Source of the DNA: Actinomycetes bacterium
GTDB lineage: Bacteria; Actinomycetota; Acidimicrobiia; Acidimicrobiales; RAAP-2
Assembly (NCBI GenBank): GCA_021810205.1
Contig: JAJZJC010000026.1
Coordinates: forward strand, 1 to 38,029
Direction: 5' to 3'
Length of the DNA stretch: 38,029 bases
Positions 24,348 to 37,914 of this stretch are shown in pieces (positions within the stretch are counted from its first letter, which is position 1; every line of letters starts with the position of its first letter). Both the position numbers and the translations under genes were made by a program. The notes beneath the pieces are model-generated. The model was not told the origin of the DNA. It saw only the letters and a list, made by a program, of their open reading frames with translations, and ran no database searches.

Positions 24348-25063
24348 CGCGCCCCGCCGATGCTCTGGGCCACTCCGAGCGGCTCCGCCTGCGAGCCGGG
24401 TACGTCCAGGACTGGCGCGTACCGCTCGCGCTGGGCGTCGACCACGAGACCCAAGAGCACCGTCGACAGTTGCGCCCGCCCGTAGGCGTCGACGTCGCGA
24501 TAGGCGCCGAGGTGCCGGTGCTTGAGGGCCCACATGTGGGCGAGCATGGTGAGGTTCCAGCCGACCAGCTCGGTGTCGTGCGGCCGGAACACCCCCGCGG
24601 CGCATCCGGCCTCGAGCTCGGCGGTGAGCAGGCCGGTCGTAGCCACCTCGAGGGCGATCACGCGCTGAAGGGCATCCCGCCCCAGCGAGTGGCTCTCTCG
24701 GTACGCGAGCACTGCCGCCATCCGGTGCGCGTCGACGACGCGGCAGTACGAGAGGAAGCCCGCAGCCAGCCGGTCGACGGGGTCGGCGAGGCCAGCCATC
24801 GCGGCGGGCACCTCGCTCGCATAGGCGTCAAGGACGTCTTCCAATATGGCGAGAAGGATGCCCTCCTTGTTCTCCACGTACTGGTAGATGGTGCCGACGC
24901 TGATCCCCGCCTCACGAGCGAGCGCGCTCACCAGCATGTCGTGGAAGCCGTGCTCTTCCATCAGGCGGGTGGCCGCCTCCACGATCTGGCGGCGGCGCCA
25001 GGACGTGCGGGCGGCTCGGATCGCCTCCGGGCCAACCTCCACCTCAACCACGTCCAGCGTCAT
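24344..25063 (-). CDS. TetR-family regulator of the catabolic island
   Basis: Repressor-type protein of 239 residues. HTH region: RQIVEAATRLMEEHGFHDML, then SALAREAGISVGTIYQYVEN with KEGILLAILEDVL, the standard TetR N-terminus. The C-terminal domain (about 95-210) is helical. ATG 25063 is chosen; an in-frame upstream ATG would add about 35 residues lacking similarity. It lies between its co-translated SDR partner and the divergent BadH-like operon, the usual position for the local acyl-CoA-responsive regulator. Ligand unknown. Confidence 0.88.
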   Translation of the reverse strand: MTLDVVEVEVGPEAIRAARTSWRRRQIVEAATRLMEEHGFHDMLVSALAREAGISVGTIYQYVENKEGILLAILEDVLDAYASEVPAAMAGLADPVDRLAAGFLSYCRVVDAHRMAAVLAYRESHSLGRDALQRVIALEVATTGLLTAELEAGCAAGVFRPHDTELVGWNLTMLAHMWALKHRHLGAYRDVDAYGRAQLSTVLLGLVVDAQRERYAPVLDVPGSQAEPLGVAQSIGGAR

Positions 25064-25231
25064 CCACGCGCGTGCTCCGATCCATGGCGCTCCGAGCGTG
25101 GGTGCTCCCGTTCTGAACGCCGGCTCAACCTGATTGAACGATACTACCAACGCGTCGGCGCCTGCCATCGATGCACCGGCAGCCGCTTGACAGGCGTCCA
25201 CGTGCGGACTACTGTCGGTTTGTGAACCACT

Positions 25232-25295: not shown

Positions 25296-26051
25296 ATGCG
25301 GATCGATCTCGAAGGGCATGCGGCGGTCGTCACCGGAGCGGGATCGGGCATCGGCCGGGCGACGACCCTGGCGCTCGCCGCAGCGGGGGCAAAGGTCGCC
25401 GCCGCCGACATCAATCTCGAAGCCGCCGAGGCGACCGCCAAGCTTGTCGCGGACGAGGGTGGCAGAGCCGAGGCCTTCGCCGTTGACGTCCGGAGCCGGG
25501 AGAGTGCCGAGGCGCTCCAGCGCGCTGCGCAGGAAGCCCTCGGGCTCGTCGACGTCGTCGTGAACGGCGCCGGGTGGAACGCTGGCCAGCCGTTCCTCGA
25601 GAACGACGCCGAGTTCGTCGAGAACGTCGTCGCGCTCAACCTCCTCGGGCCCATCTGGATCTGTCGGGCGTTCCTGGCATCCCTCGTCGACGCAGGCCGG
25701 CCGGGACGGGTCGTGAATGTCTCGAGCGACGCAGGACGGGTCGGGAGCCTCGGCGAGACCGTCTACGCGGGGGCGAAGGGCGGGGTCGTCGCCTTCACCA
25801 AGTCCCTGGCGCGGGAGATGGCCCGCTACGGCGTGAACGTCAACTGCGTCGCCCCGGGGCCGACGGACACCCCTCTGCTCCACGCCCAGCCCCAGAAGAT
25901 CCAAGACGCGCTCCTGCGGGCGATCCCACTCCGCCGCTTCGGGCAGCCCGAGGAGATCGCCCACGTCATCGCGTTCCTCGCCTCCGACCAGGCCTCCTAC
26001 GTGACCGGGCAGGTATTGAGCGTGAGCGGCGGCCTGACGATGGTCGGCTAG
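25296..26051 (+). CDS. BadH-like SDR, putative cyclic 2-hydroxyacyl-CoA dehydrogenase
   Basis: SDR of 251 residues most like 2-hydroxycyclohexanecarboxyl-CoA dehydrogenase (BadH) of alicyclic acid degradation, which makes the 2-keto ring thioester. Cofactor loop TGAGSGIG (13-20), NGAGWNAGQPF (BadH-like 'NAGWD..kPF'), Ser144, Tyr157 and Lys161, and the end GQVLSVSGGLTMVG, which matches the BadH terminus closely. ATG 25296 is preferred because GGTGAGGGAC precedes it; ATG 25263 is possible. First gene of a run of five catabolic genes; the acyl-CoA dehydrogenase gene follows after 4 bp. Substrate inferred from family only. Confidence 0.82.
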   Translation: MRIDLEGHAAVVTGAGSGIGRATTLALAAAGAKVAAADINLEAAEATAKLVADEGGRAEAFAVDVRSRESAEALQRAAQEALGLVDVVVNGAGWNAGQPFLENDAEFVENVVALNLLGPIWICRAFLASLVDAGRPGRVVNVSSDAGRVGSLGETVYAGAKGGVVAFTKSLAREMARYGVNVNCVAPGPTDTPLLHAQPQKIQDALLRAIPLRRFGQPEEIAHVIAFLASDQASYVTGQVLSVSGGLTMVG

Positions 26052-26055
26052 GGCG

Positions 26056-27234
26056 ATGGCCTCGCTCGATACGCGTTCCTCGCCGGCAGCTGCTACCTAC
26101 CTGGCCGATGCCGCCTGGCGAGCGCGGGTGGAGGAGGTCCGCGCCGTCGCCACCGGCGAGCTCGTCGAGCTCGCGCGATCGGGGGTCGAAGGACGCGTCA
26201 ACCGTCCGCTTCTGACGGCGATGGCCCGCCATGGCCTGCTCGAGGCCCTCTTCCCCGGTGCCGCCGCGGGCCAACCGAGTGGCCAAGTGGCGGCGACCGA
26301 GCTGTGTTGCTTGCGCGAGGGTCTGGCCAGCGTGTCCACCGAAGCGGAGACGGCCCTCGCGCTGCAGGGCCTCGGCGGCTATCCCATACTGCAGGGTGGT
26401 AGCACGGCGCTGGTGGAGGCGTGGATCCCCGCGATCGCCCGCGGCGAGGCGGTGGCGGCCTTCGCCCTCAGTGAGCCCGGGGCCGGTTCGGACGCCGCCG
26501 AGCTCGCGTTGCGGGCAGAGCCCTTCGGCGGTGGCTGGCGATTGTACGGCGAGAAGTTGTGGATCTCCAACGCCCCTGAAGCCGACGTCTACACGATCTT
26601 CGCCCGGACCACCCCCGGCGGTGGCGCCCGCGGCGTCACCGCTTTCGCGCTCCCGGCCGAGCGACCCGGGTGCAGCGGAGAGCCCCTCGAGCTGCTCGGG
26701 CCCCACCCGATCGGTCGGCTCCTCCTCGACGGCGTCGAGGTGGGGCCCGACGACGTCCTCGGTGAGGTCGATCGGGGTTTCGGAGTCGCCATGGCCACCC
26801 TCGACCTGTTCCGCCCAAGCGTCGGGGCCTTCGCTGTCGGGATGGCCCGCGCCGCCCTCGACGCGGCACTGTCCTACACCCAAGGGCGACAGGCATTCGG
26901 CGGCGCGCTCTCCGACTTGGAGGCAGTGGCGCACGCCCTGGCCGACATGGCGACGGAGCTCGAGGCTGCCCGCTTGCTCGTCCGAGCTGCCGCCACTGCC
27001 TACGACGCAATGGCGACACGCCACACGGTCACCCGGGCCTCGGCGATGGCCAAAGTCTTTGCCACCGAGGCGGCCCAACGGATCATCGACCACGCTCTCC
27101 AGCTCCACGGAGCCCGGGGGCTGGTCCGGGGCCACCTCCTCGAGCACCTCTACCGGGAGGTGCGGGCGACGCGCATCTACGAGGGCGCTTCGGAGGTGCA
27201 GCGGACGATCATCGCCCGGGAGCTCTTGCGATGA
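26056..27234 (+). CDS. Acyl-CoA dehydrogenase
   Basis: FAD-dependent dehydrogenase of 392 residues that introduces an alpha,beta double bond into an acyl-CoA. AFALSEPGAGSDAAELALRA and LYGEKLWISNAPEAD are the two FAD/substrate signatures; FGVAMATLDLFRPSVGAFAV and YTQGRQAFGGALSDLEAV match the C-terminal helical domain. The catalytic base is Glu376 in IYEGASEVQRTI. It lies 4 bp after the BadH-like gene. In this context it could dehydrogenate a cycloalkanecarboxyl-CoA (as AliB does), but chain-type substrates cannot be excluded. Confidence 0.92.
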   Translation: MASLDTRSSPAAATYLADAAWRARVEEVRAVATGELVELARSGVEGRVNRPLLTAMARHGLLEALFPGAAAGQPSGQVAATELCCLREGLASVSTEAETALALQGLGGYPILQGGSTALVEAWIPAIARGEAVAAFALSEPGAGSDAAELALRAEPFGGGWRLYGEKLWISNAPEADVYTIFARTTPGGGARGVTAFALPAERPGCSGEPLELLGPHPIGRLLLDGVEVGPDDVLGEVDRGFGVAMATLDLFRPSVGAFAVGMARAALDAALSYTQGRQAFGGALSDLEAVAHALADMATELEAARLLVRAAATAYDAMATRHTVTRASAMAKVFATEAAQRIIDHALQLHGARGLVRGHLLEHLYREVRATRIYEGASEVQRTIIARELLR

Positions 27235-27361
27235 GCCCCGCAGCGCGCCCGGCGCCTCGGCGTCGCCCGGCGCGCCGTTCCCCCAGGAGGGAACCGATGG
27301 CCGGCTCGTGCGGCTACCGGGTCGTTTTCCAGATGACAGTACGAGAGAAGGAGGTCCACCG

Positions 27362-28189
27362 ATGAGCCCGTTCCGCGGTTCGGTCAGCCCCACGCCGGCC
27401 TGGAAGCACTTCGAGTTCGTCCTCGAAGATCAGGTCGCCACGGTCACGTTGAACCGGCCCGAGAAGCTGAATGCCCTCACCTTCGAGAGCTATGCCGATC
27501 TGCGCGATCTCCTGCGAGAGCTACCCCAACGCGACGACGTTCGCGCTCTCGTCATCCGTGGCGAGGGCAAGGCGTTCTGCTCTGGCGGAGACGTGAACGA
27601 GATCATCGGTGAGCTCCTCAAGATGCACCCGGACGAGCTGCTCGACTTCACCCGGATGACCGGCGCGGTGGTGCAGGCGATGCGGGAGTGCCCCCTGCCG
27701 ATCATCGCTGCGATCCAGGGGATGGCAGCAGGCGCCGGCTCGGTGATCGCGCTCGCCGCCGACTTCCGCCTCCTCACCCGGTCGGCCCGCTTCGCCTTCC
27801 TGTTCACCAAGGTCGGCCTCGCCGGGGCCGACATGGGCTCGGCCTACCTCCTTCCGCGCCTAGTGGGCTTCGGTAGGGCGACGAAACTGCTCATGCTCGG
27901 CGACACGATCGATGCCGAGACCGCGGATCGCTACGGGCTCGTGTCCGAGCTCGTCGAGGACGGCGAGCTCGACGCCGCGACGACGGCGCTCGCCCGGCGC
28001 CTCGCCGACGGGCCGTCCTTCGCGTACGCGCAGACCAAGTCGCTGCTGTCGCGCGAGCTCGACATGCCGCTCTCGGCCGCGATCGAGCTCGAGGCGATGA
28101 CCCAGGCGCTGCTCATGAAGAGCGCCGACCACGCCGAGTTCCACGCGGCGTTCAACGAGAAGCGCCCCCCCGCCTGGCAGGGGCGTTAG
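27362..28189 (+). CDS. Crotonase-fold enzyme lacking both hydratase glutamates
   Basis: Enoyl-CoA hydratase/isomerase superfamily protein of 275 residues. It has TLNRPEKLNALTFESY, the oxyanion-hole segment AFCSGGDVNE, and IQGMAAGAGSVIALAADFRL. At the first catalytic Glu position (as in GGGCE) there is Ser127, and at the second there is Lys150/Val151 in FTKVGLAGADMGSAYLLPRL; Asp157 is present nearby. So it may be an isomerase, hydrolase or lyase rather than a classical hydratase. Strong ribosome-binding site AGAAGGAGGT nine nt before the ATG at 27362. Fits the operon between the dehydrogenase and the CoA ligase. Confidence 0.85.
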   Translation: MSPFRGSVSPTPAWKHFEFVLEDQVATVTLNRPEKLNALTFESYADLRDLLRELPQRDDVRALVIRGEGKAFCSGGDVNEIIGELLKMHPDELLDFTRMTGAVVQAMRECPLPIIAAIQGMAAGAGSVIALAADFRLLTRSARFAFLFTKVGLAGADMGSAYLLPRLVGFGRATKLLMLGDTIDAETADRYGLVSELVEDGELDAATTALARRLADGPSFAYAQTKSLLSRELDMPLSAAIELEAMTQALLMKSADHAEFHAAFNEKRPPAWQGR

Positions 28190-28228
28190 GGCCGAACGCA
28201 ACCCCAACCTCGCCACAAAGGGGGGACC

Positions 28229-29854
28229 ATGTCCCGAGACACCACGACAGGATCCGTCCACCAGCTCGGCGCCCGGGGCGCGACGGCGTTCCAAGTCCGA
28301 ACCGGGGGGTCACCCCAGCCGAGTCGCGACTGCTCACACGGCCACAACGTGACCGTGTGGCTGGAGGAGCTCGCCAGATCGTCGGGGTGGCTCGGGCGCG
28401 TCGCCTACCTCGACGGCGACCGGCGCTGGAGCTACGAGGAGATCGCCACCTCCGCGGCGGCGGCGGCCACCCTCCTCGCCGAGCGCGGCGCCTGCATGGG
28501 CCGATTCGTTCTCATCGCCACCCAGGACCGAATCGCCTTCGTCCTCGCCTTCCTCGGTGCCGCCCGCCTCGGCGCCATCGCACTGCCGGTCAACCCGAGG
28601 CTCGGTCCCAAGCAGCACGCCTTCATGGTCGCCGACGCCAAGCCCACCCTCGTCGTGTGCGAGGACGAGCTCACCTGCCACTTCCCGGGCGTCGCGGTGC
28701 TCAGCGCCGACGAGCTCGAGACGCTCGGACCCTCCCAGCCGCCTGCACCTCCCGCTAGCCTTCCACCTGGCGCCCTCCTCTACGGCCTGTACACCTCGGG
28801 CACCACCGGTAGACCCAAGCTCGCGCTCCACCGGCACTCCGATGTCGCCCACTACGCAGAAGTGCTGCGCGCCACCCTCGAGCCGACCCCCGACGACGTC
28901 TTCTTCTCGGTGTCGCGCGCCTACTTCTCCTACGGGCTGGGCAACAGCCTGCTGTGCGTCCTGTCGACTGGCGTCGCGGCCGTCCTCCAGCGGGAACTGC
29001 CCACCGTCGAGGCCGTCTCCCAGGTCGTGGCAAGGTTCCGGCCGACGGTGCTGTTCGCCGTCCCCACCTTCTACGCCGTGCTCCTCGCCGAGGGAGACGC
29101 GAGAAAGTTCGCCTCCCTGCGCGTCTGCCTGTCGGCGGGCGAGGCACTTGCTCCGGCGCTCCAGGAGCACGCCGCTGCCGCCTTCGGGGCGCCCGTCTTG
29201 AACGGGCTCGGCTCGACCGAGGTCGGTGGCCCCCCGTTCATCTCCCACACTCTGGGGAACTGCCGCCCGGGGACCTTGGGCAAGCCGATGCCCGGCTATG
29301 AGCTGAGCGTTCGGGACGAGCGCGCTGACCCCGTACCCCCTGGCGCGGTGGGCACGCTGTGGGTGAAGGGGCCGACCGTCATGCCCGGCTACCACAACAG
29401 GCCTGAGGAGAACGCGAAGGCGCTCGTCGGCGACTGGCTCGTCACCGGCGACCTGGTCAGCCTCTGCCAGGACGGTGAGGTCCGCTACCACGGGCGAAAG
29501 GACGACCTCCAGATGATCGGGGGCATCTCCGTGGCGCCCACCGAGATCGAGGGGATCCTTTCGGGCCACCCGGCCGTCGAGGAGGCGGCCGTCGTGGCCC
29601 TCCCAGACGCAATCGGCGCGACGCGCCTTCGCGCCTTCGTCGTCCTCGCGCCCGGGCAGGCCCCCTCCAAGGAGCTCGAGGCGACATTGCTCCAGCTCGT
29701 ACGGACTCACCTCGTCGCGTACATGGTCCCGCGCAGCGTCACCTTCGTCGACGCGCTGCCCCGCACGCCGTCGGGCAAGCTCCAGCGCCACGTCCTGCGC
29801 GGCGGCTGGCCGCCGGCCGGCAGCGGGTCGGACGCACCGACAAGGCGAGAATGA
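28229..29854 (+). CDS. Benzoate-CoA ligase-family acyl/aryl-CoA synthetase
   Basis: AMP-forming CoA ligase of 541 residues. P-loop-like motif YTSGTTGRPKLALHRHSD (about 188-205), the AYFSYGLGNSLLCVLSTG segment characteristic of benzoate-CoA ligases, LGSTEVG (adenine/substrate), WLVTGDLVSLCQDGEVRYHG, RKDDLQMIGG (hinge) and the adenylation Lys517 in TPSGKLQR. AAAGGGGGG precedes the ATG. It would activate the ring carboxylic acid at the head of the pathway; an aromatic or alicyclic acid is the best guess from the family, but a single position does not decide between them. Confidence 0.88.
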   Translation: MSRDTTTGSVHQLGARGATAFQVRTGGSPQPSRDCSHGHNVTVWLEELARSSGWLGRVAYLDGDRRWSYEEIATSAAAAATLLAERGACMGRFVLIATQDRIAFVLAFLGAARLGAIALPVNPRLGPKQHAFMVADAKPTLVVCEDELTCHFPGVAVLSADELETLGPSQPPAPPASLPPGALLYGLYTSGTTGRPKLALHRHSDVAHYAEVLRATLEPTPDDVFFSVSRAYFSYGLGNSLLCVLSTGVAAVLQRELPTVEAVSQVVARFRPTVLFAVPTFYAVLLAEGDARKFASLRVCLSAGEALAPALQEHAAAAFGAPVLNGLGSTEVGGPPFISHTLGNCRPGTLGKPMPGYELSVRDERADPVPPGAVGTLWVKGPTVMPGYHNRPEENAKALVGDWLVTGDLVSLCQDGEVRYHGRKDDLQMIGGISVAPTEIEGILSGHPAVEEAAVVALPDAIGATRLRAFVVLAPGQAPSKELEATLLQLVRTHLVAYMVPRSVTFVDALPRTPSGKLQRHVLRGGWPPAGSGSDAPTRRE

Positions 29855-29927
29855 GGAGCGCGGCGCGCAAGCAGCACAGCCGCGAGCAGAACGGCTACAC
29901 CAACAGCGAGGAAAGCGAGGAAAGCGG

Positions 29928-30734
29928 ATGCCCGTGTCCGACCACGCGGTGGAGCGCGAGCGTCGGGGATCCGTCGAGATCCTGACGATCAACCGGCCCG
30001 ACCAGCGCAACGCCATCGACGGCGCCGTCTCGAGAGGGATCGCGGCTGCGCTCGACGAGCTCGCCACCGACGACGAGGTGGCCGTGGTCATCCTCACCGG
30101 CGCCGGCGATCGGGCCTTCTGTGCCGGGATGGACCTGAAGGCGTTCGCCGCCGGCGAGATGCCCGAGACCTCCTCGGTCCCTGGGGGGTTCGCCGGCATC
30201 ACCCGGCGCAGCTTCCCGAAGCCGCTCATCGCGGCGGTCAACGGGGCGGCGGTCGCCGGGGGCTTCGAAATCGTCCTCAGCTGCGACCTCGCCGTCGCCG
30301 CCGACCACGCCACCTTCGGCATCCCCGAGGTGACCCGCGGTCTGCTCGCTGCTGCCGGCGGGCTCGTGCGGCTGCCAAAGCGCCTGCCCCTCGCCGTCGC
30401 TCTCGAGCTCGCCCTCACCGGCGCGCCCATCGACGCCGAGCGAGCCCATGCCCTCGGGCTCGTGAACCGAGTGGTGCCGCGCGACCAGGCCCTCGAGGCC
30501 GCCCTCGGCCTCGCCGAGGTGATCGCCGCCAACGCGCCGCTGTCGGTGCGAGCATCCAAGGCCGTGCTGCGCGCCGCCGCCGACACCGACGAGGCGTCTG
30601 GGTGGCGGATCAACGACGATGCAGCCGCCGTCGTGAGCCGCTCCCCCGACGCGCGCGAAGGGGCGCTCGCCTTCGCCCAGAAGCGTCCCCCGGTCTGGAC
30701 GGGTCACCGCTTCTCGTTTGGTGCGCAGATGTGA
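29928..30734 (+). CDS. Enoyl-CoA hydratase (crotonase)
   Basis: Hydratase of 268 residues: TINRPDQRNAIDGAVSRGI, oxyanion-hole AFCAGMDLKAF, VNGAAVAGGFEIVLSCDLAV with Glu114, and FGIPEVTRGLLAAAGGLVRL with Glu134, so both catalytic glutamates are kept, unlike in the crotonase encoded at 27362. Ends with KRPPVWTGH typical of the family. A 9-bp GCGAGGAAA repeat (29906-29914 and 29915-29923) gives two GAGG sequences before the ATG. Last gene of the TetR-linked run; it would hydrate the cyclic enoyl-CoA before the BadH-like step. Confidence 0.9.
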   Translation: MPVSDHAVERERRGSVEILTINRPDQRNAIDGAVSRGIAAALDELATDDEVAVVILTGAGDRAFCAGMDLKAFAAGEMPETSSVPGGFAGITRRSFPKPLIAAVNGAAVAGGFEIVLSCDLAVAADHATFGIPEVTRGLLAAAGGLVRLPKRLPLAVALELALTGAPIDAERAHALGLVNRVVPRDQALEAALGLAEVIAANAPLSVRASKAVLRAAADTDEASGWRINDDAAAVVSRSPDAREGALAFAQKRPPVWTGHRFSFGAQM

Positions 30735-30903
30735 GCACGTTCAGGCAGCCTCGCTTTGTGGAGCAGTGACGTCTCGTCTGGTTCCCCGGTGCCGTCTTCT
30801 GCCTTCTTCTGCCTTCACTTCGAGCTCACGTCGTTCGAGGTCGAGGCTCGCTGGGCTCTTCCCGGCCCAGGAGCTCCGTCATCGGCGGCCCGTCCAGCGA
30901 GTC

Positions 30904-31210
30904 CTACGTGCAGAATGGCTCCTCGAGAGAACGGATCAGCGCCTTCAAGCGGTCTCCCTGTTCTCGGTAGGCGTTGGCGAGCGCCGCAAGGTTCTCGGCC
31001 TCCGCACGAGCGATGAGGAGCTCAGTGGTCCGCGCCTGCTGGCGGTGCACCGGGAGGAATCTGCGTCCGGTGAAGAAATATGCGCAATCCAGGCAGTCGT
31101 CCTGCCTGGGGCAGATTTCGTCGACGGGCCGGACGCAGTAGCCGTTCGGCAGGCTCGTGCGGATGCGGCTCGAATTCTCCTCGATCCACTCGAGCTCACC
31201 AGGGGACCAC
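30904..31210 (-). mobile_element. Remnant of a Tn554-like tyrosine recombinase gene (3' end)
   Basis: About 95 codons matching the end of actinobacterial integrases: NGYC, three further Cys (C-x5-C-x2-C), FLPVHRQQ and LIARAEAENLAAL, then the coiled 'DRLKALIRSLEE' close. The catalytic domain is gone. It remains in frame with the upstream aldolase gene. The 168-bp spacer after it (30735-30903) holds no gene and may be more of the lost element. Confidence 0.72.
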
Positions 31211-31998
31211 TCGAGCTCACCGGGGGAGGTCTCGATCGCCGGCGCCGCCGCAAGCGCCTTGCGCCGAAGGTACTGCCAGCCCGCCTCGAGCAGTGGCGGG
31301 TTCCAGATCTCGTCCCGCTTCGATGCCGCCTCCGCCTCGTCCGACCACGAGATCGGCTCCCCAGCGGCCATTGCCGCGAGCTGCACCTGGCATGCCCTGT
31401 CGAGGAGCACCGCCGCCATCACGCCAGCCGCGACGCTCTCTCCGACAGCAACGAGCCCGTGGCGGGGCATGAGGCAGGCTCGGGCATCGCCAAGCGTCGT
31501 GGCGAGAGCGACACCGAGGTCCTTCGTTTTCACGAGGCCCCCGGTTCGAAGGAACCGGGGCACGTCGGGGTGAGCGAAGAGCGCGCCCTCGTGAGAGAGT
31601 GCCCGCAGCGGCACGCCGAGCGACGAGAGGGCGTTTGCGGCGGCCGAATGGGTGTGGACGACGCATTCGACGTCGGAACGCATCCGGAAGATCTCGCCGT
31701 GGATCGGAAACTCGATGTGGCGGGTGCCCGTGCCCTCGAGGATCTCGCCATCGAGCCCGAGGAGCAGCATCCGAGAAGCGACGACCTCGTCGAACCCCAG
31801 TCCTGCGGCCTTCATCCAAAAGCCTCGACCGCGCGGGTCCCGAACAGACACGTGGCCCCACACGAGGTCGCCCTGGCCAGCCACCCCGAGCGCCTGGTTC
31901 GCCTCCACGGCCAGCCGAACCACTGCGTCGACGTCCCTGTCCTCGACGTCCCTGTCCCCGATGTCCCTGTCCTCGATGTCCTCGATGATCAATGCCAC
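30904..31998 (-). CDS. Class II aldolase/adducin protein fused to an integrase tail
   Basis: 364-residue chimera. Residues about 24-250 are a class II aldolase domain, Zn-dependent lyase/epimerase fold: GQGDLVWGHVSVRD, VVHTHSAAANALS with metal ligands His115 and His117, and CLMPRHGLVAVG with His180. Residues about 266-364 are not aldolase: LPNGYCVRPVDEICPRQDDC, then CAYFFTGRRFLPVHRQQA, the Cys-rich end of Tn554-type site-specific recombinases. The junction lies at a 21-bp tandem repeat. N-terminal residues 6-23 are a D-R-D-rich stretch from a 15-bp repeat. GTG 31998 is chosen since TATTCT lies 6 nt upstream; a longer frame to 32079 exists. Whether the fusion protein works is unclear. Confidence 0.8.
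   Translation of the reverse strand: MALIIEDIEDRDIGDRDVEDRDVDAVVRLAVEANQALGVAGQGDLVWGHVSVRDPRGRGFWMKAAGLGFDEVVASRMLLLGLDGEILEGTGTRHIEFPIHGEIFRMRSDVECVVHTHSAAANALSSLGVPLRALSHEGALFAHPDVPRFLRTGGLVKTKDLGVALATTLGDARACLMPRHGLVAVGESVAAGVMAAVLLDRACQVQLAAMAAGEPISWSDEAEAASKRDEIWNPPLLEAGWQYLRRKALAAAPAIETSPGELEWSPGELEWIEENSSRIRTSLPNGYCVRPVDEICPRQDDCLDCAYFFTGRRFLPVHRQQARTTELLIARAEAENLAALANAYREQGDRLKALIRSLEEPFCT
31186..31227 (-). repeat. 21-bp tandem repeat at the aldolase-integrase junction
   Basis: Two 21-bp units (31186-31206, 31207-31227) with one mismatch encode SPGELEW twice, exactly where aldolase similarity ends and integrase similarity begins. Confidence 0.85.
31933..31977 (-). repeat. 15-bp tandem repeat in the aldolase N-terminus
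   Basis: Three 15-bp units (31933-31947, 31948-31962, 31963-31977), differing at two positions, plus a truncated fourth, encode an acidic/basic D-R-D-rich stretch before the aldolase domain. Confidence 0.85.
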
Positions 31999-32004
31999 GC
32001 CAAC

Positions 32005-32010
32005 AGAATA
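32005..32010 (-). promoter_or_regulatory. Putative -10 element for leaderless aldolase gene
   Basis: TATTCT on the minus strand ends 6 nt before the GTG at 31998; it is close to the consensus TATAAT and there is no good ribosome-binding site. Confidence 0.45.
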
Positions 32011-32068
32011 CCTTTCTGCTCTCAGGAGCGCCACATGTTGCGCGTGCGGTGGCACCTCATCGGCATCG

Positions 32069-32356
32069 TCATCGGCCATGTCTCGCTTTGCGCAGGTCGA
32101 GGTGCTGATGGAGTTGCGAGAGGTTGTAGCGCCCCAGCACCTCGTTGTTCGCGGCGAGCTCGTGGGCGCAGCGCGGTTCGAAGATCTCGATCACTCGAGC
32201 CGCAGCGGGTGCCTTGCAAGCTCGGTCATCGGGGTGGAGGGACGGCGCGGCGACGCAGGCGTCGTCGCGAGCGGGACAGTCTCGAGCCGACTCATATCCA
32301 CCGACGCTCCATGACGCGCCGTTGTAGAGTGCCGGACAAGTGATCGTCCGTTGCAA
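32069..32356 (-). CDS. Hypothetical small protein, doubtful
   Basis: A 95-codon frame just upstream of the aldolase gene on the same strand. The C-terminal half, IEIFEPRCAHELAANNEVLG followed by RYNLSQLHQHLDL, has a real-protein composition with few Arg/Pro, unlike most shadows here. The N-terminal half has five Cys. Not recognised. Its putative start region overlaps an inverted repeat. It could be a small gene or the end of a decayed one. Confidence 0.3.
   Translation of the reverse strand: MQRTITCPALYNGASWSVGGYESARDCPARDDACVAAPSLHPDDRACKAPAAARVIEIFEPRCAHELAANNEVLGRYNLSQLHQHLDLRKARHGR
32333..32350. promoter_or_regulatory. Inverted repeat upstream of the ferredoxin remnant and IpdAB operon
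   Basis: CGGAC-8 nt-GTCCG (32333-32337 and 32346-32350) lies about 30 bp before the ferredoxin fragment. It could be an operator for the second catabolic arm; evidence is the symmetry only. Confidence 0.3.
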
Positions 32357-32382
32357 ACTGGTCGCGCCAGCGCGGGGTCGTC

Positions 32383-32493
32383 GTGACCTACGGGATCACC
32401 GAGCCCTACGTCGAGACCAAGGGCCAGTCGTGCATCGACGTCTGCCGCGCTGGTGGCTCACGAGCGGGTCGATGCCCGCTGCCCGCAAGGTAG
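32383..32493 (+). pseudogene. Truncated ferredoxin gene fragment
   Basis: From GTG 32383 the frame reads VTYGITEPYVETKGQSCIDV then CRAGG, closely resembling the first 25 residues of 7Fe/4Fe ferredoxins ('tYvItepC...kd.aCv.vCPvd'). The first cluster Cys is replaced by Tyr, the Cys-Pro by Cys-Arg, and the frame runs into unrelated codons and a TAG at 32491, which forms part of the ribosome-binding site AGGAGG of the next gene. Cluster binding is impossible. It suggests deletion of a ferredoxin that once headed this operon. Confidence 0.65.
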
Positions 32494-32512
32494 GAGGCCG
32501 GGTGACGTCTGC

Positions 32513-33388
32513 ATGAACAAGGTCCTGTCGCTCCACGACGCCGTGGAGCGACACGTGCTCGACGGAGTAGGGCTGCTGGCCGTGGGCGGCATGCACCTTC
32601 ACAACAACCCGATGGCACTGGTGCGCGAGGTGGTGCGCCAGGGCCAGCGCATCCGGCGGCTGCTCACCAGCCCGTGCGGTGCGTTCAACGCCGAACTGCT
32701 GATCGCCGCCGGGCTGGTGGAGGAGATCGCCACCTCCTACGTCGGCTTCGAGCACCTGGGGCTGGCACCGGCGTTCCGGCGCTCGGCCGAGGACGGCTCG
32801 CTACGGGTGCTCGAGTGCGACGAGGCGTACATCACCCACGGCCTCAACGCCGGAGCCGGCGGGCTGCCCTTCGCCCCGCTGCCCGCCGGACTCGAGGTCT
32901 CCGACGTCTGGAAGGCGAACCCGGAGAGCTTCCGGCTGGTGGAGGACCCCTTCACCGGTACCCGTGTGCTCGCCGGTGCGCCGCTTCGCCCCGATGTCGC
33001 CCTGGTGCACGCGGCCGAGGCCGACACTGCCGGCAACGCAGTGCTGGCCGGGGCCCACTTCGTCGACCGGGTCATGGCGATGGCGGCCCGCACCGTCGTG
33101 CTGCAGGTCGAGCGGGTCGTGCCGACCGAGGTGATCAGCCGCCACCCCGTCGGCACCACCATCCCCGGCTTCCTCGTCCACGCCGTCGTCGAAGTGCCCG
33201 GCGGCTGCCACCCCACCGCCTCGCACGGCCACTACCGCGTCGACGAGGACCACCTGCGCCGCTACCTGGCCTTGGCTGGCGGTGCCGAAGGACCGCGGGC
33301 CTACGTGGAGCAGTACGTACGAGGCAGTGGCGAGGCCGACTACCTGCAGGCCCAGCGCGCGCCGGCGTCGGGTGAGGCGTTCGCGTGA
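32513..33388 (+). CDS. IpdA-like CoA-transferase-fold subunit (alpha)
   Basis: Alpha subunit, 291 residues, of a family annotated as CoA-transferase but containing IpdA, part of the actinobacterial steroid-degradation hydrolase IpdAB that opens a cyclic beta-keto acyl-CoA. Shared features: LHDAVERHVLDGVGLLAVGG, MHLHNNPMALVREVVRQGQR ('KPMAFVRAIL'), the CDEAYITHGLNAGAGGLPF block ('MDEGMLRCGLQAAAQRLPF'), VLQVERVVPTEVI ('LSVERIVATEEL') and VHAVVEVPGGCHPT. ATG 32513 is chosen, with AGGAGG at 32492-32497; a GTG at 32453 would read through the ferredoxin remnant. The stop overlaps the beta-subunit start. Alternative: true acyl-CoA transferase. Confidence 0.8.
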   Translation: MNKVLSLHDAVERHVLDGVGLLAVGGMHLHNNPMALVREVVRQGQRIRRLLTSPCGAFNAELLIAAGLVEEIATSYVGFEHLGLAPAFRRSAEDGSLRVLECDEAYITHGLNAGAGGLPFAPLPAGLEVSDVWKANPESFRLVEDPFTGTRVLAGAPLRPDVALVHAAEADTAGNAVLAGAHFVDRVMAMAARTVVLQVERVVPTEVISRHPVGTTIPGFLVHAVVEVPGGCHPTASHGHYRVDEDHLRRYLALAGGAEGPRAYVEQYVRGSGEADYLQAQRAPASGEAFA

Positions 33389-34191
33389 GCCAGACCGACG
33401 CAAGGACGAACGGCGGCGCGCCAGCGGGGCCGTCCATCGCAGAGCTCATGGCGGTGGAACTGGCTCGCCGGCTCCGCGGCGACGACGTCGCCGTCATGGG
33501 GACGGCCAGCGCGCTGCCGCAGATCGCCTGTCGGCTGGCGAAAGCGACCCATGCCCCCGATCTGTGGTTCGTGGCCGGAGGCACCTGCGGGGTCAACCCG
33601 CGTCTTGCCCCGGCGGTCCCCTCGTGCTGCGACGAGGACCTGCTGCGGGCGGACACCGCCGTGCCCCTGAGCGACGTGGTGCTGCTCGAGGGGCGCGGGG
33701 ACGTCTTCACCGTGTTCTTCTCGGGCGGCCTGCAGATCGACGCCCACGGCAACTGCAACCTGGTGTCGGTGGGCGACCGGGCACGCCCCAGCCTGCGGGG
33801 CCCGGGCACGGTCGGACTGCCGTTCCTGGCCCGAGTGGGGCGCGTGCTCATCTACACGATGGCCCACAACCCCCGGACGTTCGTGGAGCGGGTCGACTTC
33901 CTCGGTGGTCCGGGCTTCCTCGACGGACCCGCCTCGTGGGCGGCGGCCGGCCTCACGGGTGGCGGGCCAGCGGCGGTGGTGACGCCGCTGTGCACCATGG
34001 GCTTCGACTCCCAGACGCTGCGGATGCGGCTCGAGACGGTCCACCCAGGCGTGACGGTCCACGAGGTGGTGGAGGCCACCGGTTTCGAGGTGGTCGTACC
34101 CGAGGTGGTCCCCCCGACGCCTCTGCCAACCGATGAGCAGATCGCCATCCTCCGGGGCATCGACTCGGATGGTCTCTTGAAAGGACGCTGA
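33385..34191 (+). CDS. IpdB-like CoA-transferase-fold subunit (beta)
   Basis: Beta subunit, 268 residues, partner of the preceding gene (GTGA overlap). Features of the IpdB-like group: IAELMAVELARRLRGDDVAV, SGGLQIDAHGNCNLVSVGD ('GANQVDRYGNQNISA'), GTVGLPFLARVGRVLIYTMA, MRLETVHPGVTVHEVVEATG ('VSLHPGVTPGDVRDATSF'), and the closing TPLPTDEQIAILRGID ('TRLPTDDELHLIRAVID'). Together with the alpha subunit it should form a heterodimer or heterotetramer. The following BadH-like gene begins 3 bp later, so the pair sits next to an enzyme making cyclic 2-keto acyl-CoA, supporting hydrolytic ring opening over CoA transfer. Not proven. Confidence 0.8.
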   Translation: MSQTDARTNGGAPAGPSIAELMAVELARRLRGDDVAVMGTASALPQIACRLAKATHAPDLWFVAGGTCGVNPRLAPAVPSCCDEDLLRADTAVPLSDVVLLEGRGDVFTVFFSGGLQIDAHGNCNLVSVGDRARPSLRGPGTVGLPFLARVGRVLIYTMAHNPRTFVERVDFLGGPGFLDGPASWAAAGLTGGGPAAVVTPLCTMGFDSQTLRMRLETVHPGVTVHEVVEATGFEVVVPEVVPPTPLPTDEQIAILRGIDSDGLLKGR

Positions 34192-34194
34192 ACC

Positions 34195-34959
34195 ATGCCC
34201 AACGACGGGAGGTTCGCCGGCCAGGTGGCCATGGTCACTGGGGCCGGCAGCGGTATCGGCCGGGCGGCGGCGCTGCGGCTCGTGCGCGAGGGAGCGGCCG
34301 TGGTGGTCGCCGACCTCGCGGCCGAGCGGGCCGCGGCCGTGACCGCCGAGGCCGCAGACCTCGGCGGGGAGGCCGAGGCGACCGTGGTCGACGTCGCCGA
34401 CGCCGGTGCTGTCCGCCGGGCGGTCGACGGGGCCGTCGAGCGCTTCGGGAAGATCGACATCTTGGTGTCCAACGCGGGGTGGGACAAGGTGATGCCCTTC
34501 GTCGAGACCGACGAAGCCCTGTGGGACAAGGTCATCGCCATCAACTACCGGGGCCACCTCGCCTCTGCGCACGCCGTGGTGCCCCACATGATCGAACGCG
34601 GCACCGGGCGGATCGTGCTGGTGGCCTCCGACGCCGGGCGGGTGGGGTCGACGGGCGAGGTCGTCTACTCGGGAGCGAAAGGGGCGGTCATCGCCTTCAC
34701 CAAGGCTCTGGCCCGGGAGACTGCCCGATCGGGGGTGAACGTGAACTGCGTGGCGCCCGGCCTCACCGACACGCCGATGCTGGCCGGTGTCAGCGAGGGC
34801 CACGAGAAGCTCATGGCCGCCATCATCCGCTCGATCCCCTTGGGACGGACCGCCCTGCCCGAAGAGGTGGCCGCCGCCGTGCTGTTCTTCGCCTCGTCCG
34901 ACGCCGCGTACATCACCGGACAGACGCTCAGCGTCAACGGCGGCCTGTCGATGGTATAG
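34195..34959 (+). CDS. Second BadH-like SDR, putative cyclic hydroxyacyl-CoA dehydrogenase
   Basis: SDR of 254 residues, even closer to BadH than the copy at 25296. TGAGSGIG (15-22), SNAGWDKVMPFVETDEALWD (BadH 'NNAGWDIFKPFTKTEPGEWE'), VASDAGRVGSTGEVVYSGAK with catalytic Ser145, Tyr158 and Lys162, PGLTDTPML, and the end GQTLSVNGGLSMV. AAAGGA lies upstream of the ATG. Located 3 bp after the IpdB-like gene and presumably in one operon with it. Expected to oxidise a 2-hydroxycycloalkanecarboxyl-CoA to the 2-keto form, the substrate type for ring-opening hydrolases. Confidence 0.85.
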   Translation: MPNDGRFAGQVAMVTGAGSGIGRAAALRLVREGAAVVVADLAAERAAAVTAEAADLGGEAEATVVDVADAGAVRRAVDGAVERFGKIDILVSNAGWDKVMPFVETDEALWDKVIAINYRGHLASAHAVVPHMIERGTGRIVLVASDAGRVGSTGEVVYSGAKGAVIAFTKALARETARSGVNVNCVAPGLTDTPMLAGVSEGHEKLMAAIIRSIPLGRTALPEEVAAAVLFFASSDAAYITGQTLSVNGGLSMV

Positions 34960-35076
34960 GGCACGCGGCGGACCGGTGCCGAGCGCCGAGCTGGCGTCGA
35001 ACCATGACCGCTGCAGCGCGCAGATTCCCTCCCGGACTTTGCTGGCGGCAGCGCCACCGGCGGCCTGGCACCGAGC

Positions 35077-35793
35077 TCACTGCGGCGGGGGCACCACCTG
35101 GGCCGAGACGTCGAACAGCTCGTCGGGCTCGCGGCCGGTGGCAGCCCCGGCGAAGTTGGGCCCGTAGAGGGTGACGAAGGTGTCCATGATCAGCTCGAAA
35201 GGGAGGTCCGCGAAGCTGCCGCGCTCGCGCAGGTACTCCATGTGCTGGCGGCCGTCGACCGAGAACTGGTGGAACAGCGAGTCGTGCGCTCCGTCGAATT
35301 CGAGTGGCCGGACCCCGAATCGTTCGCAGAGCTCGACGTTGAAGGCGGGCGTCGCCTTCACCCATCGGCCGGACAGCCAGAATTCGACGAACCCGTGGAA
35401 GGCGAAGACGTCGGTGCCCATCAGTGCCAGCAGCTTGGTGCTGGCCAGGTGGTTGCGCACGTCGGCGAAGCCCAAGCGCGACGGCACCCCGGCGGCGCGC
35501 CCCAAAGCGGTCAGCAGCACCGCCTTGGGGATGCAGTAGGCGCGCCGACGTGCCAGCACGGCGCTGGCCCGGTAGGTCGCCGGGTCGTCGCCGACGAGGT
35601 AGGGGTCGTAGCGCACCTCGTCGCGCACGGCGTAGAAGAGACGCGTCGCCCGCTCGGCGTCGCTGCACGCGCCAGCGACGACAGCGGCGGCATGCCCGAC
35701 CACCGCCGGGTGGTCACAGTCCACGAACCACGTCGGCGCGAGGTACGGGGCGAGATCCTCTCGCACTGTCACCGGTTGCGCGTCAGCTGCCAC
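35077..35793 (-). CDS. Transglutaminase-like (papain-fold) protein
   Basis: 238-residue protein of the transglutaminase-like superfamily, no signal peptide, so cytoplasmic. Core: ATRLFYAVRDEVRYDPYLVG, ARRRAYCIPKAVLLTALGRA with the nucleophile Cys87, and FHGFVEFWLSGRWVKATPAF with His133. The usual third residue, Asp in 'vDpt', is replaced by the ATPAFN segment. GTG start at 35793. It is divergent from the ring-hydrolase-type crotonase and shares its double-operator region. A role is not known: proteolysis, amide hydrolysis or acyl transfer are all possible. Its place in a catabolic island is unexplained. Confidence 0.82.
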   Translation of the reverse strand: MAADAQPVTVREDLAPYLAPTWFVDCDHPAVVGHAAAVVAGACSDAERATRLFYAVRDEVRYDPYLVGDDPATYRASAVLARRRAYCIPKAVLLTALGRAAGVPSRLGFADVRNHLASTKLLALMGTDVFAFHGFVEFWLSGRWVKATPAFNVELCERFGVRPLEFDGAHDSLFHQFSVDGRQHMEYLRERGSFADLPFELIMDTFVTLYGPNFAGAATGREPDELFDVSAQVVPPPQ

Positions 35794-35858
35794 ACCCCGC
35801 CCCGTCTTTCATGCCTGCAAACCTACCCAGATTCGAAGAACGAGCGCTCACGACGGCG

Positions 35859-35905
35859 TGATGTACTACATTTTCATGACCAGGATCAACATGATGTAGT
35901 ACATT
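35859..35905. promoter_or_regulatory. Twin palindromic operators in a bidirectional promoter
   Basis: Two copies of TGATGTA(C/G)TACATT lie at 35859-35872 and 35892-35905. Each contains a perfect 11-bp palindrome ATGTA-N-TACAT; centres are 33 bp apart, three helical turns. Plus-strand promoter candidate: ATGACC (35876-35881), 18 nt, TACATT (35900-35905). Minus-strand candidate: TTGATC (35884-35889), 18 nt, TACATC (35860-35865). So each operator covers one -10 box. The regulator is not in an adjacent gene. Confidence 0.75.
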
Positions 35906-35932
35906 GTCCCCAAAGAGAGGGAGGGAGGACCG

Positions 35933-37003
35933 ATGGCCTTTGCGCAGCTGCCGACCGTCGAGTACACGGAGATCGGCTACGCCAAGAAGGACTGGGTGGC
36001 ACGCATCACCATCGAGCGGCCCGAGGCCTACAACGCCTACAGCACCCGCACGTTGATCGAGCTGGCGGCCGCCTTCCGCGACGCCGCGTTCGACGACGAG
36101 GTGGCGGTGATCGTCTACACCGGCAGCGGCACGGCCGCCTTCTGCACCGGCGGCGACGTCAAGGAGTACGACGAGGTCTACACGCGCTCACCCCACGACT
36201 ACTGGAAGTACATGGGGCTCTTCAGCGCCTACATCGAGAGCATCCTCAACACCGGCAAGCCCGTCATCGCGCGGCTCAACGGCATGGCGGTCGGCGGCGG
36301 CAACGAGAGCCACCTCGCCTGCGACCTGTCGGTCATCGCCGAGCATGCCTACGTGGGCCAGGTCGGCACCAAGGTGGGCAGCGTAGCGGCAGGCGGCGCC
36401 ACCCAGTGGCTGCCGATCTTCGTCGGCGACCGCCGGGCTCGGTGGATGCTCATGCTCAACCGCCCAGTGCCCGCGTACCAAGCCCTCGAGTGGGGACTGG
36501 TCAACGAGGTGGTCCCTTCGGTCCGCAAGGACGGGGCGTTCATCGAGAGAGCCACCCCCGAGCAAGTGAAGAAGGCCCAGAAGAACGAAGACGGCTACGG
36601 CATCGACCTCTCCCGCCTCGACGAGACGATCGACGCCCTGTGTGCTGAGCTGGTCGACAAGTTCCCCGAGTGCACCCGCTACACCAAACAGCAGGTGAAT
36701 TTCTGGAAGGACCTGGCTTGGCACCAGACCGTCGGCCACGCTCGCGACTGGCTCAGCATCCACTACGCCAGCTTCGAGCCGATCGAGGGGATGGGCGCCT
36801 TCGTCGAGAAGCGCCAGCCCAACTACCGCATGCTGCGGGAACGGGCGGTTCGTGGCGAGTCCTCGGAGTTCGTCTGGGGCCCTTACACCCAGCGCTGCCC
36901 GCGCTGCGACGCACGGTACCTGCCTGCAGGCTTCGCCTTCTGCGGCCAGTGCGGCAGCCCGCTCGACGGCGCCGTTGCCGTCGACACGTCGGCGAGGAAG
37001 TGA
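35933..37003 (+). CDS. Ring-hydrolase-type crotonase (BamA/Oah- and BadI-like) with C-terminal zinc ribbon
   Basis: 356 residues. Crotonase core: PEAYNAYSTRTLIELA (BamA 'QYNSYTT'), FCTGGDVKEYDEVY (oxyanion hole), PVIARLNGMAVGGGNESHLA with Glu125 at the catalytic position, and GQVGTKVGSVAAGGATQWLP. The extended C-terminal part IDLSRLDETIDALCAELVDK then FPECTR and ARDWLSIHYASFE is specific to 6-oxocyclohex-1-enecarbonyl-CoA hydrolase (BamA/Oah), while GQVGTKVGS resembles BadI ('GQVGPKMGS'). An extra domain follows: Cys322, Cys325, Cys337, Cys340 form a CxxC-x11-CxxC zinc ribbon. Strong AGGGAGGA ribosome-binding site. Reaction inferred: hydrolytic opening of a cyclic keto acyl-CoA. Compared with BamA as I recall it, His in 'GPKHGS' is Val. 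Confidence 0.82.
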   Translation: MAFAQLPTVEYTEIGYAKKDWVARITIERPEAYNAYSTRTLIELAAAFRDAAFDDEVAVIVYTGSGTAAFCTGGDVKEYDEVYTRSPHDYWKYMGLFSAYIESILNTGKPVIARLNGMAVGGGNESHLACDLSVIAEHAYVGQVGTKVGSVAAGGATQWLPIFVGDRRARWMLMLNRPVPAYQALEWGLVNEVVPSVRKDGAFIERATPEQVKKAQKNEDGYGIDLSRLDETIDALCAELVDKFPECTRYTKQQVNFWKDLAWHQTVGHARDWLSIHYASFEPIEGMGAFVEKRQPNYRMLRERAVRGESSEFVWGPYTQRCPRCDARYLPAGFAFCGQCGSPLDGAVAVDTSARK

Positions 37004-37126: not shown

Positions 37127-37525
37127 GTGCACGGCATCGGGTCCTCGACGAGCCGCCGGGCGGACGCTGCCGCGGCGCCCGGATCCGACGCCGTCGGCGG
37201 CGAGGATCTCCAGGCCGCCGGCTGGGAGCGACGCTTCGACGTCGACTCTGCACGGGTGGAGGAGATCGAAGAGCTCTACCGCTCGGCGGGATACGAAGTG
37301 CACGTCCGGGCCCTGGCGCCCGAGTCCTTCGGCCCCGAGTGCGCCGGCTGCGCTCTCGGGGCCTGCAGTCGCTACGTCGAGCTCTACACGCGGCGGACCG
37401 GAGATCCGTCGACCTCGACTCCCTCGCCGATGAAGCCGATGAAGCCGATGAAGCCGATGAAGAGCACAGCACCAGCGTCGCTGGCGCGGACGAAGGAGCA
37501 CCATCGATGGCAACCGACCTCCTGA
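37127..37525 (+). CDS. Small Cys-motif protein, unknown function
   Basis: 132-codon frame with an in-frame TAG just before its GTG start. The folded-looking part is RFDVDSARVEEIEELYRSAG, then YEVHVRALAPESFGPECAGC and ALGACSRYVELYTRR, with Cys in a CxxCxxxxC arrangement that could bind a metal. I do not recognise a named family. The tail after YTRR is low-complexity (PMK repeated) because a 9-bp repeat array lies there, and probably is not part of the original fold. It overlaps the hemerythrin start by 19 bp. Placed between the ring hydrolase and hemerythrin genes. Confidence 0.55.
   Translation: MHGIGSSTSRRADAAAAPGSDAVGGEDLQAAGWERRFDVDSARVEEIEELYRSAGYEVHVRALAPESFGPECAGCALGACSRYVELYTRRTGDPSTSTPSPMKPMKPMKPMKSTAPASLARTKEHHRWQPTS
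37427..37462 (+). repeat. 9-bp microsatellite (CCGATGAAG)4
   Basis: Four perfect tandem copies of CCGATGAAG at 37427-37462, in frame in the small Cys-motif gene (Pro-Met-Lys units). They lie 44 bp before the hemerythrin start, so copy number could change the spacing or tail without frameshift. Confidence 0.9.
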
Positions 37526-37914
37526 ACCTGATCGACCAACTCGAGCAGGAGCACCGCCAGATGCGCGACGCGCTGGCGCGCCTTGGCGAGGTACCGGCGG
37601 ACGCCGATCTCGCCACCGTGGTGGCGACACTGCACGACCTTGCCCCAGTGCTGGTAGCGGGACTCGACGAGCACAGCGCCGTCGAGGACACCACGCTGTT
37701 CCCTGCGCTGGCGGAGGCAGTCGGGGCCGCTGTCGACGTGTTCCGCGCCGAGCACGTCGACATCCGCTCGTGGCGCGACCAGCTCTACGGGTCGCCTTCG
37801 GTCGTGGACCGACTGAGGGCGGGAGCCGAGCTGCGGGAGCTGCTCGAGGCCCACATGGACCGCGAAGACGCCATGCTCTTCCCGAGCGCCCGCGACGTGC
37901 TCGGCGGGGAATGA
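37507..37914 (+). CDS. Hemerythrin HHE-domain protein
   Basis: Four-helix non-haem di-iron protein of 135 residues, binding O2 or sensing redox/NO in known members. Metal-ligand His/Glu pattern: LEQEHRQMRDALARL (helix 1), LDEHSAVEDTTLFPALAEA (helix 2, H-x3-E), FRAEHVDIRSWRDQL (helix 3), LEAHMDREDAMLFPSA (helix 4, H-x3-E). GAAGGAG lies 8 nt before the ATG at 37507. A longer upstream frame, including an acidic repeat translation, is discarded. Probably co-transcribed with the ring-hydrolase gene; oxygen handling or sensing is a guess. Confidence 0.88.
   Translation: MATDLLNLIDQLEQEHRQMRDALARLGEVPADADLATVVATLHDLAPVLVAGLDEHSAVEDTTLFPALAEAVGAAVDVFRAEHVDIRSWRDQLYGSPSVVDRLRAGAELRELLEAHMDREDAMLFPSARDVLGGE

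Follow-up and report, generated by a model that had tools for sequence, protein, structure and literature searches.

An IpdAB-like gene pair tied to benzoyl-CoA reductase genes in an uncultured actinomycete: a possible substitute for Dch and Had in benzoyl-CoA degradation

Which ring is degraded, and by which enzyme is it opened, when BadH-like dehydrogenases, a pair of IpdA/IpdB-like subunits and a BamA/BadI-like hydrolase are encoded side by side, a combination not known from any textbook pathway? The question is raised by a stretch of 38,029 nucleotides (the window), which is the entire contig JAJZJC010000026.1 (C28) of a metagenome-assembled genome (MAG) from an uncultured actinomycete (3.0 Mb, 71.65% complete). 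An initial annotation of positions 25296–37003 listed a benzoate-CoA-ligase-like enzyme, an acyl-CoA dehydrogenase, two crotonases (ech1 and ech2), two BadH-like short-chain dehydrogenases (sdr1 and sdr2), an IpdA/IpdB-like pair and a BamA/BadI-like hydrolase. All of these genes are long open frames lying in two same-strand arms, and scans of the window proteins with NCBIfam (which has a curated cut-off for each family) and Pfam agree with their general class. The idea of a CoA-dependent catabolism of ring acids with IpdAB-like and BamA/BadI-like enzymes in one module also stands, and the combination recurs in other loci. Our comparisons suggest, at a probability that we judge evenly balanced, that the island encodes the later steps of benzoyl-CoA degradation by an oxygen-independent route, Dch and Had being replaced by a water-adding enzyme of the IpdAB-like type and a BadH-like dehydrogenase. 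In what follows, G numbers denote genomes, L numbers loci, and C28, C161 and C163 contigs of the window MAG; neighbour counts rest on our own picking of open reading frames and on tblastn, and are restricted by short contigs.

The genes at the heart of this proposal form arm 2: an ipdA-like α subunit gene (32513–33388, + strand; Pfam CoA_trans, 97 bits), an ipdB-like β subunit gene (33385–34191, +; CoA_trans, 41 bits), sdr2 (34195–34959, +; BadH family TIGR03206, 278 bits for a cut-off of 431; NF005559, 230 for 215) and, further on, the gene of the ring hydrolase (35933–37003, +; TIGR03200, 217 bits for a cut-off of 464; BadI, 160 for 468). In NCBIfam, the IpdA-like protein has weak matches, at 43 and 41 bits and so short of the cut-offs, to two CoA-transferase families; the IpdB-like protein has no match. 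The hydrolase, which is 95–96% identical to its counterparts in the same-genus genomes G007–G009 and 79% to that in G098, ends with a four-cysteine zinc ribbon, the four cysteines being invariant in a four-row alignment; its zinc-ribbon Pfam matches lie below cut-off.

The statement that no benzoyl-CoA reductase (BCR) or epoxidase is present is correct for the window and fails for the genome, where BCR-like genes are found on contig C161, which overlaps the end of the window. The overlap (window positions 37800–38029) is a single blastn match with the last 204 bases of C161; it is 88.696% identical over 230 columns, i.e. 204 identical bases plus 26 gap columns, and on reading a 26-bp repeat occurs in two copies at the window end and in one copy at the C161 end. 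Going onward from the window, C161 carries genes for a PaaX-family protein (by family clustering), a 3-hydroxyacyl-CoA dehydrogenase and a TetR-like regulator (by reading), then bcrC, bcrB, bcrA and bcrD, and finally genes for an FrhB-like protein, a ferredoxin and three molybdenum-hydroxylase subunits. The BcrB/C-like proteins and two different activase-like subunits share one operon (C161 42674–46917), as they do in relatives, and both neighbouring activase-like subunits exceed the TIGR00241 cut-off. The α and β subunits of the molybdenum hydroxylase match 4-hydroxybenzoyl-CoA reductase best (776 of 995 and 286 of 405 bits), and the γ subunit scores slightly higher against a glyceraldehyde dehydrogenase subunit (193 bits) than against 4-hydroxybenzoyl-CoA reductase (172 bits). 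We infer from the overlap that C28 and C161 are joined; in agreement with this, ech2 adjoins the 3-hydroxyacyl-CoA dehydrogenase gene in relatives, and the arm-2 block sits at that point in the window genome. Note that, in this genus, the stretch between bcrD and the 4-hydroxybenzoyl-CoA-reductase-like genes (L061 11428–12666 on C161, and L063–L065) encodes a ferredoxin and an FrhB-like protein of the coenzyme F420 type (171 of 269 bits); a role as F420-linked electron donor for BCR is possible.

The genes of both arms recur in the same order, at 85–97% identity, in the three same-genus genomes G007–G009, where sdr1 is partly covered, so that the gene set is not due to chance. In these genomes, one contig carries arm 1, a 3-hydroxyacyl-CoA dehydrogenase gene, bcrC-B-A-D, frhB, fd and hcr, and another carries ipdA-ipdB-sdr2-transglutaminase-bamA-hem. 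The initial annotation made its reading depend on the genes being linked in relatives; this holds by half, within each arm, the gene order of which is kept, and not between the arms, which lie on different contigs (arm 1 with BCR, arm 2 with bamA). Of 14 genomes screened for the BcrB/C domain (PF06050, HGD-D), five have a strong pair (the window genome, on C161, and G007, G008, G009 and G098), G010 has a weaker one (117 and 60 bits) and the other eight have none. A BamA-like protein scoring 644–831 bits was found in five of the 100 genomes searched, the window genome included, all other listed matches staying at or below 135 bits. The genomes with a strong HGD-D pair are those with a strong BamA-like protein; within the genus (the window genome plus 12 others), the same four genomes have both. 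In G009, the arm-2 block is followed by genes for PaaX (160 bits, below the cut-off of 265), BoxC (862 bits, cut-off 712) and BoxB (717 bits, cut-off 499), and the arm-2 contig of G007 also carries boxC/boxB. More generally, the aerobic benzoyl-CoA genes boxC and/or boxB lie beside ipdAB/bamA or BCR genes in L038 (15912–19000), L070, L075, L083, L084 and L086, which suggests facultative oxygen use.

Judged by sequence and gene order, ipdA, ipdB and sdr2 are conserved together as a unit that is linked to BCR. Among the 25 loci examined that have ipdA or ipdB (L210, on the same contig as L083, being left out), sdr2 follows ipdB on the same strand, at a distance of 6–139 bp, in 23; of the other two, L087 has no detected sdr2 and L147/L067 is unreadable (N) past ipdB. 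BCR genes share the locus with ipdA/ipdB-like genes in 17 of these 25 cases, and bamA does so in 16. A class-level search of 395 genomes identified ipdA orthologues (E ≤ 1e-80) in 12, including the window genome. In six genomes that are 94–100% complete, G155, G595, G536 and G690 from one family and G548 and G563 from another, the genes form the operon bcrC-bcrB-bcrA-bcrD-ipdA-ipdB-sdr2. In several neighbourhoods (L038 3164–5610, L077, L079, L080, L082 and L085), ipdA or bamA is adjoined by genes of our families F25 and F27 and by two genes resembling class III CoA-transferases, for which succinate-glutarate CoA-transferase is the best match, at a score below cut-off. One F27 member, in L125, is a UbiD-family decarboxylase, above cut-off; this group of genes may provide an entry route from phthalate to benzoyl-CoA.

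The distribution of the unit was then set against that of Had and Dch. In the best 80 of 135 BamA-like loci, which are titled Actinomycetota, Chloroflexota, Gemmatimonadota, Acidobacteriota, Thermoplasmata and others, BCR genes were present in the stretch examined in 65 (family clustering). A Had-like zinc alcohol dehydrogenase gene was found in 34 of the 80, all four proteins tested matching Had best (223–277 bits, cut-off 339), and close ipdAB genes in 14; the two never occurred together (0 of 80). The starred branches of the BamA tree require that the ipdAB and Had types were exchanged at least twice. The TIGR03200 scores of relatives range from 201 to 220 bits in the 7 of 10 whose match was listed, the cut-off of 464 not being reached. 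Six crotonases encoded in bamA loci or near bamA were tested: one matched Dch (TIGR03189) at 195 bits, just behind a general crotonase family at 197, and the other five gave no match at the limit of 1e-55; two proteins labelled ech by the clustering (L075 and L083) match a 3-hydroxyacyl-CoA dehydrogenase query best. BamA-like genes are also present in the Thermoplasmata archaeal MAGs L127, L128, L139, L140 and L145, and L139 and L145 have BCR-like and Had-like genes as well.

At the genome level, we compared 25 genomes that we picked through their BamA-like gene from the loci examined, 14 of the ipdAB type and 11 of the Had type. The ipdA profile scores 390–570 bits in all 14 ipdAB genomes and at most 172 bits in all 11 Had genomes. 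Conversely, Had (TIGR03201, E ≤ 1e-45) is detected in 11 of 11 genomes without ipdAB (219–429 bits, one above cut-off) and in 0 of 14 with ipdAB, a count to which the incompleteness of MAGs still applies. The best Dch score is 112–181 bits in the Had genomes versus 76–109 bits in the ipdAB genomes, none reaching the cut-off of 292.5, and in 9 of the 11 Had genomes the best Dch match lies on the Had contig, at most 9 kb from Had. As judged by these profiles, the ipdAB genomes examined are without a canonical Had and without a crotonase scoring clearly as Dch.

What the IpdAB-like pair might catalyze was then considered from its residues. The IpdA chains of PDB entries 6co6 and 6coj differ at one glutamate in alignments (Glu in 6co6, Ala in 6coj). 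In an ipdA alignment of 47 rows that includes all 28 homologue loci, this α glutamate (residue 104 of the window protein) is present in 18. These are RHA1 IpdA, the homologues L153 and L154, which are not linked to BCR or BamA, and every one of the 15 rows that are so linked, among them the window and G155; the position is occupied by Gly in AibA, Gln in GctA and Asn in L092 and L094. The β glutamate of glutaconate CoA-transferase is missing from all 15 readable BCR- or BamA-linked ipdB-like rows, L082 being unreadable. According to PMC5380842, IpdAB also has no such β glutamate, and none of the donors and acceptors assayed gave CoA-transferase activity. As in IpdAB, the window pair has by its sequence a CoA-transferase fold devoid of that residue, with a predicted heteromeric assembly. 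Because the α glutamate is kept and the β glutamate lost, the catalytic residues favour IpdAB-type chemistry over CoA transfer; they also speak, with less weight, against a decarboxylase of the AibAB type. The BCR/BamA-type IpdA-like proteins form one clade (support 99/97), whose placement on the side of the tree with RHA1 IpdA is weakly supported, at 75/86 (47 rows) or 54/71 (32 rows); branches are long, and two rows on that side have no Glu. AlphaFold gave a low-quality model of the IpdA-like chain (mean pLDDT 53.7, pTM 0.53), which was left aside. Note that the pairs of L092 and L094 (Chloroflexota) clustered with ipdAB and lie beside BCR, but they are glutaconate-CoA-transferase-like and keep the catalytic β glutamate; they were not counted as ipdAB and are possibly CoA-transferases that activate the substrate.

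In the pathway that we propose, the ligase would activate benzoate-type acids, and BCR would convert the product to cyclohexa-1,5-diene-1-carbonyl-CoA. The IpdAB-like heteromer, by means of its α glutamate, would then add water at the ring β-carbon to give 6-hydroxycyclohex-1-ene-1-carbonyl-CoA, as Dch does, and the BadH-like Sdr2 would oxidize it to 6-oxocyclohex-1-ene-1-carbonyl-CoA, as Had does; BamA would open the ring of the latter compound, and the resulting 3-hydroxypimelyl-CoA would go to β-oxidation. Dch adds water across the dienoyl-CoA, the hydroxyl group ending β to the thioester, and the action of IpdAB probably starts with the addition of water to a cyclohexene-carboxyl-CoA. Placed before a BadH-like dehydrogenase, an IpdAB-like hydratase would therefore cover exactly the two missing steps, BamA keeping its usual job. 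In families without bamA, the IpdAB-like enzyme would also have to open the ring. In PMC5380842, the reaction of IpdAB is described as a retro-aldol hydrolysis.

Several results weigh against this proposal. The specific names BadH, BamA, BadI and benzoate-CoA ligase are best or near-best NCBIfam matches, none of which exceeds its own cut-off, and the Bcr subunits of C161 also score below theirs (BcrC, TIGR02263, 250 of 421 bits; BcrB, TIGR02260, 211 of 487; BcrA, 216 of 578; BcrD, 128 of 313). Nine of the 22 BamA loci titled Actinomycetota or relatives show no ipdAB in the stretch examined, several of them being cut by contig ends. The Dch gap is narrow at its edge (112 bits in the lowest Had genome, 109 in the highest ipdAB genome), and matches to the Dch profile at E ≤ 1e-20, one or more per genome, occur in all 14 ipdAB genomes; an unlinked crotonase could thus perform the hydration, and ech1 and ech2 also sit in arm 1. 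Moreover, almost every ipdAB genome belongs to the Actinomycetota, and the ipdA genes form one clade, so that the exclusion between Had and ipdAB is clean but involves few independent events. The main objection to a pure hydratase comes from the six bcrC-B-A-D-ipdA-ipdB-sdr2 operons: bamA is absent from the stretch examined around all of them and, in G155 (100% complete), a genome-wide search at the sensitivity used found no BamA-like protein, the best match (125 bits, versus 767 in the window genome) being an ordinary crotonase by reading. If the IpdAB-like enzyme were a hydratase only, ring opening in G155 would be left unexplained.

These operons speak for ring opening by the IpdAB-like enzyme, BamA being a second opener or having another substrate and a crotonase performing the Dch step, an explanation that we hold to be rather unlikely overall. 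It draws further support from PMC5380842, where COCHEA-CoA has the same ring core and where echA20 (MenB/BadI-like), ipdA and ipdB of the steroid regulon have the order found for the BamA-like, ipdA and ipdB genes in seven loci (L083, L084, L086, L087, L137, L146 and L147); the two arrangements may share ancestry. Yet, it would leave the Dch step with no linked gene in ipdAB loci other than arm 1 and would make BamA redundant in the 14 examined genomes that have both enzymes, all picked through BamA; besides, BamA works without close ipdAB in genomes having Dch and Had. Instead of the two kinds of ring-opening enzyme first envisaged for the island, the IpdAB-like enzyme may hydrate the BCR product while BamA opens the ring, and it may open rings in the six operons without bamA. 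Altogether, the IpdAB-like role could be hydration, ring opening or both, lineages without BamA favouring ring opening there. The boldest reading, which would explain all observations and which we regard as doubtful, is a third lower route: a single IpdAB-type heteromer would hydrate the dienoyl-CoA and, after oxidation by the short-chain dehydrogenase, open the 6-oxocyclohexene ring, making Dch, Had and BamA dispensable.

Three other explanations seem much less probable. The pair could be a decarboxylase of the same fold, for instance one of the AibA/AibB kind that decarboxylates glutaconyl-CoA at a later stage, in the breakdown of glutaryl-CoA: AibA is the top PDB match of the α subunit (144 bits, versus 140 for GctA and 123–127 for the IpdA chains) and, according to PMC7756340, also has no CoA-transferase glutamate, and acyl-CoA dehydrogenase matches (26–37% identity) occur near ipdAB in L080 and L084–L086. 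We consider it improbable, since the α glutamate of all 15 BCR- or BamA-linked rows is Gly in AibA and since a decarboxylase accounts neither for the tie to BCR instead of glutaryl-CoA genes nor for the missing Had. Activation of benzoate or a dicarboxylic acid by the pair, as an ordinary CoA-transferase, is highly improbable: the pair has CoA_trans domains, and L092 and L094 look like true transferases beside BCR, but the catalytic β glutamate is missing from the 15 readable rows and a separate AMP-forming ligase is present. There is equally little to be expected of an already alicyclic or terpenoid acid degraded independently of BCR, the entry initially suggested. The arm-1 dehydrogenase does match cyclohexane-1-carbonyl-CoA dehydrogenase best, although weakly (212 of 650 bits), and the ech, sdr and ligase genes could form a side branch of the Ali/Bad type; however, the arms have BCR-like and 4-hydroxybenzoyl-CoA-reductase-like genes next to them, both in this genome, as judged from the contig overlap, and in relatives, where box genes also lie beside arm 2.

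Arm 1 may provide activation through the ligase, an extra hydratase and dehydrogenase, or an alicyclic side branch. All its genes are on the + strand: sdr1 (25296–26051; TIGR03206 BadH, 267 bits for a cut-off of 431; NF005559, 216.6 for 215), 87–95% identical across the portion visible beside BCR in G007–G009; the acyl-CoA dehydrogenase gene (26056–27234; cut-off 650 for the match mentioned above; 92–94% identity in the same genomes); ech1 (27362–28189; NF006107, 416 bits for 330; 96–97%); the benzoate-CoA-ligase-like AMP-forming ligase gene (28343–29854; TIGR02262, 341 bits for 375; 86–88%); and ech2 (29928–30734; NF006100, 326 bits for 282; 92–95%). Among the listed window matches, only those of Ech1, Ech2 and the two short-chain dehydrogenases (with the general subfamily NF005559) exceed an NCBIfam cut-off. 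A TetR-family regulator gene (24344–25228, −; TetR_N, 49.4 bits) is divergent from arm 1. A reading of arm 1 in terms of 2-aminobenzoyl-CoA or salicyl-CoA was dropped, the monooxygenase being on another contig, C163, and no arm gene matching the two C163 stretches examined; this stand-alone monooxygenase (L048 13506–15104) resembles the N-terminal half of salicylyl-CoA 5-hydroxylase (422 of 1078 bits, below cut-off).

Two genes on the opposite strand sit between the arms. One encodes a class II aldolase/adducin-fold protein (30904–32079, −; PF00596, 131 bits), for which tblastn found no match in L038–L040 and L063–L065 and which is probably a bystander; the other, encoding a transglutaminase-like protein (35077–35793, −; Transglut_core, 63 bits), is kept in L038–L040. 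Downstream of the hydrolase gene lie a small cysteine-containing protein gene of family F11 (37127–37525, +; no Pfam match) and a hemerythrin-domain protein gene (37435–37914, +; Hemerythrin, 60 bits). Family F11, found by clustering in 15 loci (L069, L073–L075, L077, L080, L082, L085, L089, L092, L094, L095, L105, L117 and L134), has a conserved GWxRRF motif and, in most members, a short cysteine cluster; it adjoins BCR/bamA in Actinomycetota, Chloroflexota and Gemmatimonadota and is possibly a BCR-associated factor. Rfam and tRNA scans of the window gave no matches.

In the literature that we searched, no paper joined ipdAB with benzoyl-CoA reductase, BCR with glutaconate CoA-transferase and 6-oxocyclohex-1-ene, or BCR with Actinomycetota and phthalate. 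Our data suggest that several Actinomycetota families have a benzoyl-CoA reductase pathway of class I. They also lead us to propose that steps normally performed by a crotonase and a zinc alcohol dehydrogenase passed to an enzyme with a CoA-transferase fold, of a kind known to cleave steroid rings; two purified enzymes and two known CoA esters would suffice to test this replacement directly.

The class I (Bcr-type) benzoyl-CoA pathway of the Thauera type runs through Dch, Had and Oah. The system described here resembles it in its four-subunit BCR-like operon, its BamA/Oah-like hydrolase, its 4-hydroxybenzoyl-CoA-reductase-like genes and its ferredoxin, but has ipdA-ipdB-sdr2 instead of Dch and Had, for which none of the 14 ipdAB genomes gave a Had match at the threshold used or a clear Dch match, and its Bcr and BamA proteins score below cut-offs. 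The Rhodopseudomonas route uses BadK, BadH and BadI; Sdr1 and Sdr2 are most similar to BadH and the hydrolase also matches BadI, but all BadH and BadI matches of the window lie below cut-off and, to our knowledge, that route has no counterpart of the IpdAB-like genes. Compared to AibA/AibB, the window pair has the same glutaconate-CoA-transferase fold lacking the transferase glutamate (PMC7756340), whereas AibA has Gly where the window family and IpdA have Glu. Finally, the EchA20 and IpdAB step of last-ring steroid degradation, as described in PMC5380842, likewise brings together a MenB/BadI-like hydrolase, ipdA, ipdB and a short-chain dehydrogenase, with the α glutamate kept and the β glutamate absent; the context of the window family, however, is BCR and not a steroid regulon, and by score it matches IpdA no better than it matches AibA or GctA.

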